From Pasteurella canis (GTDB lineage: Bacteria; Pseudomonadota; Gammaproteobacteria; Enterobacterales; Pasteurellaceae), in assembly GCF_900454865.1 (NCBI RefSeq), contig NZ_UGTV01000015.1:1490001-1554000 (forward strand): a DNA stretch of 64,000 bases, in the 5' to 3' direction. Under the pieces are notes generated by a model. It saw nothing but the letters and a program-made list of their open reading frames with translations. It made no database searches and was not told where the DNA came from. Of the stretch, positions 32,199 through 35,004 are shown in pieces. The translations under genes were made by a program, and so were the position numbers. Positions within the stretch are counted from its first letter, which is position 1, and each line of letters starts with the position of its first letter.

Positions 32199-32227
32199 AT
32201 TCTACGAATAAGATCTAATCATGTCAA
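32199..32227 (-). promoter_or_regulatory. Promoter of the csy operon
   Basis: On the minus strand TTGACA (32227-32222, perfect -35) is followed after exactly 17 bp by TAGAAT (32204-32199, five of six to the -10 consensus). Transcription would start near 32192, about 29 bp before the small gene and 236 bp before csy1. This near-consensus promoter suggests strong expression that would need restraint. Confidence 0.88.
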
Positions 32228-32231
32228 TAAA

Positions 32232-32263
32232 TTTTTAAATAAAAAATACACATGAATACATGG
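32232..32263 (-). promoter_or_regulatory. Protospacer-like operator with CC PAM, target of the mini-CRISPR RNA
   Basis: On the minus strand CC (32263-32262) is followed by ATGTATTCATGTGTATTTTT and on into 32232. It matches the pseudo-spacer at 32369-32340 at positions 1-5, 7, 8, 10-13, 15-17, 19-23 and 25; mismatches fall at 6, 9, 14, 18, 24 and 26-30. CC is the type I-F PAM, and position 6 is one type I complexes do not read. The site ends 4 bp before the -35 box, so a bound Csy complex should hinder RNA polymerase without full pairing to trigger cutting. The match is seen; the function is inferred. Confidence 0.85.
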
Positions 32264-32311
32264 ATGAAAATAAAGGTGAATAAGATACATAAATTACATG
32301 TAAGGAAGAGC

Positions 32312-32405
32312 AAAGAAAAACCGCCTATACGGCGGTAACAAAACATATAAAGAATGCACAAGAGTACATTTTCTAAGCCACTTTTCAGCGGTCCTTTAGT
32401 CTACC
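32312..32405 (-). ncRNA. One-spacer degenerate mini-CRISPR, predicted CreR-type cas-regulating RNA
   Basis: Reading leftward from the end of mutS: pseudo-repeat 1 (32397-32370) keeps the last 11 bases of the array repeat, TGGCTTAGAAA, and a small hairpin CCGC-TGAAAA-GTGG; a 29-30 nt pseudo-spacer begins ATGTACTCTTGTGCATTCTT (32369-32350) and ends near 32340; pseudo-repeat 2 begins GTTACCGCC at 32339 and forms CCGCC-GTATA-GGCGG with the same loop as the array repeat, then runs into TTTTTCTTT (32320-32312), which makes it also an intrinsic terminator. Thus exactly the parts a mature crRNA needs are kept: 5' handle, guide, 3' hairpin. Candidate promoters overlap the mutS end: TTGAAA/16/TATAGA (32439-32412) or TTGAGT/16/TAGACT (32425-32398). 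Confidence 0.85.
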
Positions 32406-32421
32406 GTACTTTCTATAAAAC

Positions 32422-35004
32422 TCAAACTAACTTTTTCAACTGATACAAATACGCCAGTGCTTGTTTTGGACTCAGTTCATCAGGATCGAGTTTTTCGAGC
32501 ATTTCCCAAACTGCATTTTTGCCATCGTTTTCTTCCATCAGAGCTAATTCGCCTTGTGTTTGATTGAGTTGGCGTAAATCCTGAATACGTTGGTCGGCAT
32601 TTTGTTGTGATAGTTTTTCTAATTGTGCTAATTTTTGTTTTGCCAGTTTAATAACTGATTGTGGTACACCTGCTAAAGCAGCTACTGCTAAACCATAACT
32701 TTTACTTGCGGCCCCTTCTTGTACGGAGTGCATAAAAGCAATGGTATCATTGTGTTCTAAGGCATCTAAATGGACATTGGCGCTGCCTGCCAGCTGTTCG
32801 GGTAATACAGTCAGCTCAAAATAGTGCGTGGCAAATAATGTCAGTGAGCGCAATTTTTTCGCAAGCCATTCTGCACATGCCCAAGCCAATGACAAGCCAT
32901 CATAAGTCGACGTACCGCGCCCAATTTCATCAATGAGCACCAAACTCTGTGCCGTGGCTTGATGTAGAATATTTGCCATTTCGGTCATTTCCACCATAAA
33001 AGTAGAGCGTCCAGAAGCTAAATCATCTGAGGCACCAATACGGGTAAAAATACGATCAATCGGTCCAATGATGGCACTTTCAGCTGGTACAAAACTGCCA
33101 ATATATGCCATCAAAGTAATCAAGGCTGTCTGACGCATATAAGTGCTTTTTCCCCCCATATTAGGGCCTGTAATAATTAACAGATGACGCTGTGAATTAA
33201 GCTGTACTGGATTTGCAATAAACGGCGCTTTTAAAACCTGTTCTACGACAGGATGACGCCCTTGTTGAATATATACACCAATGTCATCACTAAATTGTGG
33301 TGCGACATAATTTAAACTCTCTGCACGTTCTGCTAAATTCGTCAGTACATCCAGTTCTGCTAACGTTAAGCTCGCAAGTTGTAACGCCCCTAAATGCGGT
33401 AATAACTCGTCAAACAATTGTTCATAAAGCTGTTTTTCTAGTGCCAATGCAGCACCCTTAGCTTTTAGCACTTTATCTTCATAGGTTTTCAGTTCGGGAA
33501 TAATATAACGTTCAGCATTTTTAAGCGTTTGGCGGCGTACATAATGGATTGGAGCTTTATGCGATTGCCCTTGGCTGATCTGAATATAATAACCATGCAC
33601 TGCATTAAAACCGATTTTTAACGTATCAATGCCTGTACTTTCACGTTCACGACGTTCTAAATCCTCTAAATAACGCGTAGCGCCCTCTGATAAACTACGC
33701 CATTCATCAAGCTCCGCATTATAGCCTGCGGCAATCACACCACCATCACGGATGAGCATTGGTGGATTATCAATTAATGCACGTTGTAATAGATCCAATT
33801 GTGTTGAAAACTCGGCAATTGGTTGTAAAAGTGCGGTCAGATTTGGGGAAGTTTGCTGTTGTAAAATTTGACGAATTGCGGGAATTTGCGCTAATGCAGT
33901 GCGTAAACGTGTGAGATCGCGCGGACGTGCAGAACGCAATGCAACACGTGCTAAAATTCGTTCCATGTCACCAATTTGATGTAAATATGGTTGCAACTCT
34001 GACACTAAATCTTGTGTTAAAATGGCACTTATCGTTTGTTGACGTTGAGTAAGCTTTTCTACATCACGAATCGGTTGGTGAATCCATCTCTTTAACAAAC
34101 GACTGCCCATTGCAGTAACACACTTATCCAACACTGAAGCTAACGTATTTTCTGTGCTTCCTGCTAAATTTTGAGTTAATTCTAAATTACGGCGCGTTGC
34201 GGCATCTAATTGAATGTTTTCAGAATTTTGCAATAAAGTAATGCTTTGAATATGCGGTAAAGCAGTGCGCTGTGTATCTTTTGCATATTGTAATAAACAC
34301 CCTGCTGCACATAAGCCCAAAATGGCTTTTTCCACACCAAATCCGCGTAAGTCTTTAGTATTAAACTGACGATTCAGTAATTGTATTGCTGTGCCTAATT
34401 CAAATTCCCAAATAGGGCGACGGCGTAATCCTTTGATATGTTCAATCGCCGAAAAATCCGCCAACTCTTCACAATATAACATTTCTACAGGCGAAATACG
34501 TTGTAATTCAGCCTGTAAACTCGCGCGATCGTCTAGCTCACTGATTTGAAAACGTCCAGAACTCATGTCTAAAATCGCTAAACCAAAACGCGTTTTCTCT
34601 TGATAAAGGGCAGCAATAAGATTGTCTTGGCGCTCAGGTAATAAACTTTCATCACTCACTGTACCTGGTGTCACAATACGCACCACTTTACGCTCAACAG
34701 GCCCTTTTGCAGTAGCAGGATCACCAACTTGCTCACAAATTGCCACTGACTCGCCTAATTGCACTAACTTCGCTAAATAACCTTCAACCGCGTGATAAGG
34801 TACTCCTGCCATTGGAATAGGTTGTCCCGCTGACTGTCCACGCTTCGTCAATGAAATATCGAGTAATGCTGCTGCTTTCTTCGCATCATCGTAGAAAAGC
34901 TCATAAAAATCCCCCATACGATAAAACAATAAAATATCAGGATTTTCCGCTTTAAGGGCGATGTATTGTCGCATCATTGGCGTATGTAATTCTAAGTTAT
35001 CCAT
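32422..35004 (-). CDS. mutS: DNA mismatch repair protein MutS
   Basis: An 860-aa mismatch sensor that scans DNA and recruits MutL. The mismatch-wedging motif is GDFYELF near residues 31-37 (Phe and Glu of the F-x-E pair). The ATPase domain has Walker A GPNMGGKSTYMRQ near residue 618, Walker B LIDEIGRGTSTYDG near residue 694, and ATHYFELT. The C-terminal dimer/tetramer region ends DELSPKQALAYLYQLKKL. Full length for the family (E. coli 853 aa). It is a single gene; the mini-CRISPR hairpin 87 bp past its stop can also serve as its terminator. Confidence 0.97.
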   Translation of the reverse strand: MDNLELHTPMMRQYIALKAENPDILLFYRMGDFYELFYDDAKKAAALLDISLTKRGQSAGQPIPMAGVPYHAVEGYLAKLVQLGESVAICEQVGDPATAKGPVERKVVRIVTPGTVSDESLLPERQDNLIAALYQEKTRFGLAILDMSSGRFQISELDDRASLQAELQRISPVEMLYCEELADFSAIEHIKGLRRRPIWEFELGTAIQLLNRQFNTKDLRGFGVEKAILGLCAAGCLLQYAKDTQRTALPHIQSITLLQNSENIQLDAATRRNLELTQNLAGSTENTLASVLDKCVTAMGSRLLKRWIHQPIRDVEKLTQRQQTISAILTQDLVSELQPYLHQIGDMERILARVALRSARPRDLTRLRTALAQIPAIRQILQQQTSPNLTALLQPIAEFSTQLDLLQRALIDNPPMLIRDGGVIAAGYNAELDEWRSLSEGATRYLEDLERRERESTGIDTLKIGFNAVHGYYIQISQGQSHKAPIHYVRRQTLKNAERYIIPELKTYEDKVLKAKGAALALEKQLYEQLFDELLPHLGALQLASLTLAELDVLTNLAERAESLNYVAPQFSDDIGVYIQQGRHPVVEQVLKAPFIANPVQLNSQRHLLIITGPNMGGKSTYMRQTALITLMAYIGSFVPAESAIIGPIDRIFTRIGASDDLASGRSTFMVEMTEMANILHQATAQSLVLIDEIGRGTSTYDGLSLAWACAEWLAKKLRSLTLFATHYFELTVLPEQLAGSANVHLDALEHNDTIAFMHSVQEGAASKSYGLAVAALAGVPQSVIKLAKQKLAQLEKLSQQNADQRIQDLRQLNQTQGELALMEENDGKNAVWEMLEKLDPDELSPKQALAYLYQLKKLV

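Follow-up and report, generated by a model that had tools for sequence, protein, structure and literature searches.

In a 64,000-nucleotide stretch of the Pasteurella canis genome (hereafter, the window), the gap between mutS and csy1 carries, on the minus strand, an 86-nt mini-CRISPR (clustered regularly interspaced short palindromic repeats) at 32397-32312, made up of two degenerate repeats (psiR1 and psiR2) with a 30-nt guide between them. The guide matches a site that is flanked by a CC protospacer-adjacent motif (PAM) and lies just upstream of the predicted promoter of the csy operon. Judged from the sequence, the element is very probably a type I-F autorepressor of the CreR type, whose CRISPR RNA (crRNA)-like product is predicted to make the Csy complex block the operon that encodes it. 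A mini-CRISPR with its target, under the strict definition given below, is present at 43 of 140 type I-F loci, the window included, and the guides are mostly different. Moreover, the pattern of guide-target mismatches across these loci strongly supports the view that the pairing occurs inside a type I effector, the Csy complex.

The guide and its target in the window

Guide and CC-flanked target are identical at 16 of the first 20 positions and at 19 of the first 23, the mismatches within positions 1-20 falling at 6, 9, 14 and 18. On both strands of the 64 kb the target is the best match of the guide (the runner-up reaches 16/23), and the pattern CCATGTANTCNTGNG has a single occurrence in the 2.34-Mb genome, which is the target site. 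In Markov shuffles of the intergenic region, matches of at least 16/20 arise with P ~5e-5 if CC is required and ~0.001 if no PAM is demanded. The 54 array spacers, compared with the same intergenic region, reach at best 12/20 with CC and 14/20 without a PAM.

The handle of psiR1, CTTAGAAA, is the same as in the 55 array repeats, and its hairpin differs from that of the array repeat. The predicted fold of the mini-CRISPR RNA is more stable than those of shuffled sequences (z = -3.2). In Rfam, the mini-CRISPR returned one sub-threshold match, to STnc220, whose 20.6 bits fall short of the gathering score of 60. The guide is identical in the window and in Pasteurella oralis (L003), which also keeps, with one amino-acid change, the 63-residue open reading frame (ORF) that precedes csy1 in the window.

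An earlier, sequence-only reading of this DNA had placed psiR1, guide and psiR2 on the minus strand where we find them, and its 19/23 match with a mismatch at position 6 is reproduced by our recount. The gap of 4 bp that it gave between the target and the -35 box TTGACA is correct for a 30-nt protospacer; the full 32-nt protospacer ends 2 bp from the box. Its csy promoter, with TTGACA, stands as well, but the 63-residue ORF ahead of csy1 was absent from that account.

Occurrence, mismatches and covariation among relatives

The sample was built by searching for Csy1 in 140 genomes of the family (matches in 26), in named genomes (31 loci), in 394 genomes of the order (60), in 369 of the class (34) and in 199 from the family to which Psychrobacter vallis belongs (40). 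Pasteurella itself was represented by a single genome for each species. The order-level loci comprise 30 taken automatically and 20 further stretches; matches from the order, the class and the P. vallis family that had no extracted locus were left out. Also left out were second contig copies (L030-L036, L041, L044-L046, L051, L100, L127, L141 and L144, and further L064, L065, L070, L073 and L074), the broken csy1 of an Actinobacillus genome (L025, L028 and L029, with L056 as the named copy), the weak match L027 and the short contigs L038 and L047. Removal of duplicates and fragments gave a pool of 140 loci, 137 of them distinct; the duplicates found later (L053 and L142, L049 and L084, L050 and L087) include no strict match. 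One locus, L155, is uninformative, with 167 nt of upstream DNA, and the upstream stretches of L020 and L097 are short. The scan covered at most 1.2 kb on the upstream side of each Csy1 match, and a strict match required a hairpin, a handle, at least 15/20 identities and CC.

Upstream of the Csy1 matches of the 140 loci we found 502 handle motifs. A hairpin precedes 198 of them, and 53 of these have a match of at least 15/20, with CC at 43; the 304 motifs without a hairpin gave 28 such matches, with CC at none. Strict matches are distributed over 13 of 24 Pasteurellaceae loci, 5 of 16 further named loci, 11 of 44 from the order, 5 of 28 from the class and 9 of 28 from the P. vallis family. The carriers include P. 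oralis, Aggregatibacter segnis, three Gallibacterium species, Psychrobacter, Acinetobacter and Gilliamella, as well as the betaproteobacterium Advenella alkanexedens. In an earlier pass over 84 loci, in which no PAM was imposed, 33 matches reached 15/20 or better, and CC flanked 29 of them. When each guide was compared with its own region (a spurious AC row of L052 having been dropped and the CT and TC rows kept), 24 of 27 reached 15/20 with CC, as against 3 of 702 cross-locus comparisons. The Psychrobacter locus L039 has a guide-target match of 20/20. At L012, from a relative in the same genus, the match is 17/20 (mismatches at 6, 12 and 20), with CT in place of CC and the handle UUUAGAAA. 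By eye, the mini-CRISPR of L004 has apparently been deleted between flanks that its congener L005 keeps.

It is the position of the mismatches that points to the Csy complex. The set used comprises 37 non-redundant pairs, CC rows only, and was selected on total matches in 20, so that no position was favoured. None of the 185 bases at positions 1-5 is mismatched; position 6 is mismatched in 28 of the 37 pairs (76%), position 12 in 25 and position 18 in 18. Thus positions 6, 12 and 18 are mismatched in 71 of 111 cases, compared with 32 of 555 at the other positions of 1-18 (Fisher 1.6e-41), and in 20000 permutations the count at these three positions had a mean of 17 and a maximum of 32. The 13 pairs that came from later searches behave alike (27/39 compared with 13/195). 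At positions 21-32 the pairs are mismatched in 51-84% of cases, and position 6 resembles those unpaired positions. The type I-F complex leaves every sixth base unpaired. In type I-E Cascade likewise, bases 6, 12, 18, 24 and 30 are turned outward and do not pair (excerpt of PMC5965380). With mismatches free at positions 6, 12 and 18, rare at 7-11 and 13-17 and absent at 1-5, the pattern strongly supports pairing within the Csy complex.

Guides and targets also change together. The window and P. oralis have the same guide, and the first 24 positions of their targets differ only at 6, 12 and 24, followed by a one-base insertion. In twelve disjoint locus pairs with a guide identity of at least 13/20, we counted 23 changes in concert and 14 one-sided ones at paired positions, as against 19 one-sided changes at positions 6, 12 and 18; descent from a common ancestor is not certain for all of these pairs. 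In L010 and L013, guide and target have changed in concert at positions 5, 10 and 11. Covariation of guide and target among relatives was among the checks that the sequence-only reading had proposed, and concerted changes are what it yields. Csy-guided recognition of the csy promoter region, as claimed there, is strongly supported by the recurrence of the element across loci, the CC flank, the mismatches at 6, 12 and 18 and the concerted changes.

The loci share further features of architecture. In 26 of the 37 non-redundant pairs, csy1 and the mini-CRISPR are on opposite strands. The 22 nt directly 5' of psiR1 contain a TATAAT-like hexamer at 37 of the 43 loci; among 540 control windows, 113 have one. 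A T tract follows psiR2 at 9 of 13 same-strand loci and at 1 of 29 opposite-strand loci, which fits a need to halt read-through into csy. The second stem starts 19-41 nt past the handle, most commonly 24-25 nt, leaving a guide of about 20 nt before the GTTCA-like start of psiR2. Among the 26 opposite-strand targets, 15 have a PAM that abuts TTG, which is often where a -35-like box starts (31 of 884 for GG controls). At 18 close loci (17 of the 43, and L012) the distance from the target to the start of csy1 is 11-116 bp, the start codon having been picked by a simple Shine-Dalgarno score. Between target and csy1, the ORFs vary by lineage: 63 residues in the window and P. oralis, a 77-residue DUF2188 protein in Psychrobacter L039, and 107 residues without a Pfam match in Gilliamella L076.

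Proposed mechanism, related systems and rival readings

In the mechanism that we propose, transcription would start from the TTGAGT/TAGACT promoter directly 5' of psiR1 and would terminate in psiR2, and Csy4 would cleave past the stem of psiR1 to give an RNA predicted to start CUUAGAAA-AUGUACUC. The Csy complex loaded with this RNA would bind its target across about 17-20 nt, a pairing presumably too short or too mismatched for cutting by Cas3, and the bound complex would exclude RNA polymerase from the csy promoter. Repression would be lifted once array crRNAs or anti-CRISPR proteins occupy the Csy complex; this step, too, is inferred by analogy, reviews of CreR describing relief by crRNAs and anti-CRISPRs (excerpts of PMC12737573, PMC13131331 and PMC12948488).

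Comparisons with published systems refer here to excerpts of the papers cited. CreR, described as effector-dependent self-repression of cas (PMC12737573), is named there for subtypes I-B, I-E and V-A (PMC13131331). Like CreR, the element of the window is a one-spacer mini-CRISPR near cas, with a guide of limited complementarity to a PAM-flanked site at the cas promoter, and effector self-repression is predicted. Unlike CreR, it would use the type I-F Csy complex as effector, with hairpins of the Csy4 type and a CC PAM, and type I-F is outside the subtypes named; moreover, the I-F guides, although 30 nt long in the window, mostly measure about 20 nt, psiR2 has its T tract mainly at same-strand loci, and a leader ORF is sometimes present. 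The closest published anatomy is that of CreTA of Acinetobacter sp. WCHA45, a type I-F psiR1-psiS-psiR2 element beside csy1, in which a 20-nt guide mismatched at positions 6, 11 and 18 directs Csy-dependent repression of a promoter, and changes at positions 2-5, 7-9 and 13-17 abolished function (PMC10097628). This mutational profile is close to the natural mismatch profile of the 37 pairs. Both systems have a CC-flanked, partly matching target of a crRNA-like guide beside csy1; in CreTA, however, the target controls an RNA toxin, with a Shine-Dalgarno sequence and a 33-bp mini-ORF, and not cas, whereas the window has an ORF of 63 codons. Some rows from the Psychrobacter-Acinetobacter family may be CreTA homologues. 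CrePA is a CreA-guided repression of a protein gene beside CRISPR-Cas, in which CreP is typically a KilA-N protein (PMC12737573), in contrast to the 63-residue ORF of the window, which has no Pfam match. RNA anti-CRISPRs (Racr) are solitary repeat units in viral genomes (PMC10651486); the mini-CRISPR resembles them as a repeat-like small RNA outside an array, but has two repeats, a guide that matches the csy promoter region and a place in the mutS-csy1 gap. The sequence-only reading had known of no report for this family. Among the literature matches listed there is indeed no type I-F CreR, a prediction for I-F in the original description of CreR being possible; type I-F CreTA beside csy1 has been published, though, acting on a toxin RNA and not on cas (PMC10097628).

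Several observations weigh against autorepression by the Csy complex, or against its generality. Strict matches are found at only 43 of the 140 loci and, within the Pasteurellaceae, at 13 of 24. In the pass without a PAM, 4 of the 33 matches lack CC (CT in L012 and L091, TC in L110, AC in one row of L052), as do 10 of the 53 matches preceded by a hairpin, and matches without a hairpin also arise by chance (28 of 304). The pair of the window has additional mismatches at 9 and 14. In the window and in P. oralis, csy1 is not the first ORF, being preceded by that of 63 residues. Lastly, that binding represses csy, rather than acting otherwise, is drawn by analogy with the known systems.

Of the rival readings, one holds that the element is a guard of the CreTA or CrePA kind, in which the guide represses a toxin, perhaps the 63-residue ORF or an RNA, that is freed when the Csy complex fails, control of cas being secondary. 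We regard this as unlikely, with a small but real chance of being right. The published CreTA beside csy1 in Acinetobacter has the same anatomy, the CC and mismatches at 6, 11 and 18 (PMC10097628), and small lineage-specific ORFs are the first after the target in the window, in Psychrobacter and in Gilliamella; such leader ORFs leave room for a guard function. However, the 18 close loci contain no ATG mini-ORF with a Shine-Dalgarno match of at least 4/6 (several ATGs have weaker matches, and TTG starts with a 4/6 match occur in L007, L092 and L105). The 63-residue protein, moreover, belongs to no family: among about 5.8 billion proteins it found only its own cluster, with no NCBIfam or Pfam family, and its ORF is followed by csy1 after 15 bp. 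It is improbable that binding of the Csy complex ahead of the -35 box stimulates the csy promoter, or insulates it, instead of repressing it. Some targets do end upstream of the -35 box, without necessarily overlapping it; on the other hand, the known analogues repress, and a block of the polymerase is expected where the PAM abuts TTG, as in the 15 of 26 opposite-strand cases, and at L010 and L013, where the site is 11 bp from the csy1 start.

It is very improbable that the guide is the remnant of a true self-targeting spacer, cutting or priming at the csy locus. Its handle and PAM are intact, and the match in Psychrobacter L039 is complete; yet the element is present at 43 loci, pairing fades past position 20, and the commonest guide, of about 20 nt as judged from the distance between stems, is shorter than a 32-nt spacer. 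Chance similarity of AT-rich sequences beside a decayed array has a negligible probability: the region is AT-rich and the guide is of low complexity, but the period-6 mismatches across lineages contradict it, and shuffles, array spacers, cross-locus guides, the PAM and the handle motifs without a hairpin led us to reject it. Just as improbable is an antisense RNA acting in trans, by pairing with the csy mRNA. The element does look like a short RNA gene with a terminator-like hairpin, but the CC flank and the period of six are features of type I DNA targeting. Moreover, since the target in the window lies upstream of the csy -35 box, it is outside the csy mRNA made from that promoter, and antisense pairing was rejected for the window.

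The surrounding locus and the meaning of the proposed Csy-guided control

The window encodes Csy1-4, Cas1f and Cas3f, the type I-F set, on the minus strand (Table 1), and its Csy1 is 98% identical to that of P. oralis (L030, on the same contig as L003); the top protein match, at 96%, carries the name P. canis. The end of the array beside cas1 has a degenerate terminal repeat at 24618-24591, and the spacer that precedes it (24650-24619) contains a 10-bp inverted repeat, CTCTCTTTAA...TTAAAGAGAG. Elsewhere in the window, the ORFs at 35136-36530 and 36543-38015 are neighbours that have repeated stretches in common (repeat families D3 and D7) and resemble paralogues.

Table 1. Coordinates of the mini-CRISPR, its target and the type I-F locus in the window
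Feature	Position	Strand	Description	Basis
Predicted mini-CRISPR promoter	32398..32425	-	-35 TTGAGT 32425-32420 (overlaps the mutS stop), 16 bp, -10 TAGACT 32403-32398	sequence
psiR1, degenerate repeat	32370..32397	-	stem CCGCT/GAAA/AGTGG 32391-32378, 5' handle CTTAGAAA 32377-32370; predicted Csy4 site	
Guide, 30 nt	32340..32369	-	ATGTACTCTTGTGCATTCTTTATATGTTTT	sequence
psiR2, degenerate repeat	32312..32339	-	hairpin CCGCC-GTATA-GGCGG 32335-32321, then TTTTTCTTT, T tract; predicted Csy4 hairpin and intrinsic terminator	
Target	32230..32263	-	CC PAM 32263-32262 and 32-nt protospacer 32261-32230	sequence match, seed-pattern search
Predicted csy operon promoter	32199..32227	-	-35 TTGACA 32227-32222, 17 bp, -10 TAGAAT 32204-32199	score 11/12
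63-residue leader ORF	31972..32163	-	first ORF past the target promoter; csy1 starts 15 bp after	ORF
csy1 (cas8f)	30622..31956	-		TIGR02564
csy2, csy3, csy4 (cas6f)	28060..30613	-		TIGR02565, TIGR02566, TIGR02563
CRISPR array	24591..27918	-	55 identical repeats GTTCAACATCGTATAGATGGCTTAGAAA with 54 intervening 32-nt spacers, then one further spacer and a degenerate terminal repeat	
cas1f and cas3f (cas2-3)	20177..24485	-		TIGR03637, TIGR02562

Type I-F systems are favoured for work on anti-CRISPRs. If autorepression by the Csy complex is true, the complex that phages inhibit would also set its own dose, so that inhibition would trigger resupply. Possibly, although we hold this only tentatively and think it rather doubtful, self-repression guided by Csy is widespread as an inbuilt control of type I-F systems in gamma- and betaproteobacteria, in which small, rapidly changing leader genes at the head of the controlled operon turn the guide into a fuse: an anti-CRISPR that disarms the complex would then cause an alarm gene and new Csy proteins to rise together. 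The 37 natural pairs may also be taken as an evolutionary read-out of the crRNA positions that matter for non-destructive I-F binding, namely 1-5, 7-11 and 13-17, with 6, 12 and 18 free. This read-out points to a rule for designing Csy-based gene silencing, and it would make the regulation of cas in type I-F systems testable locus by locus.

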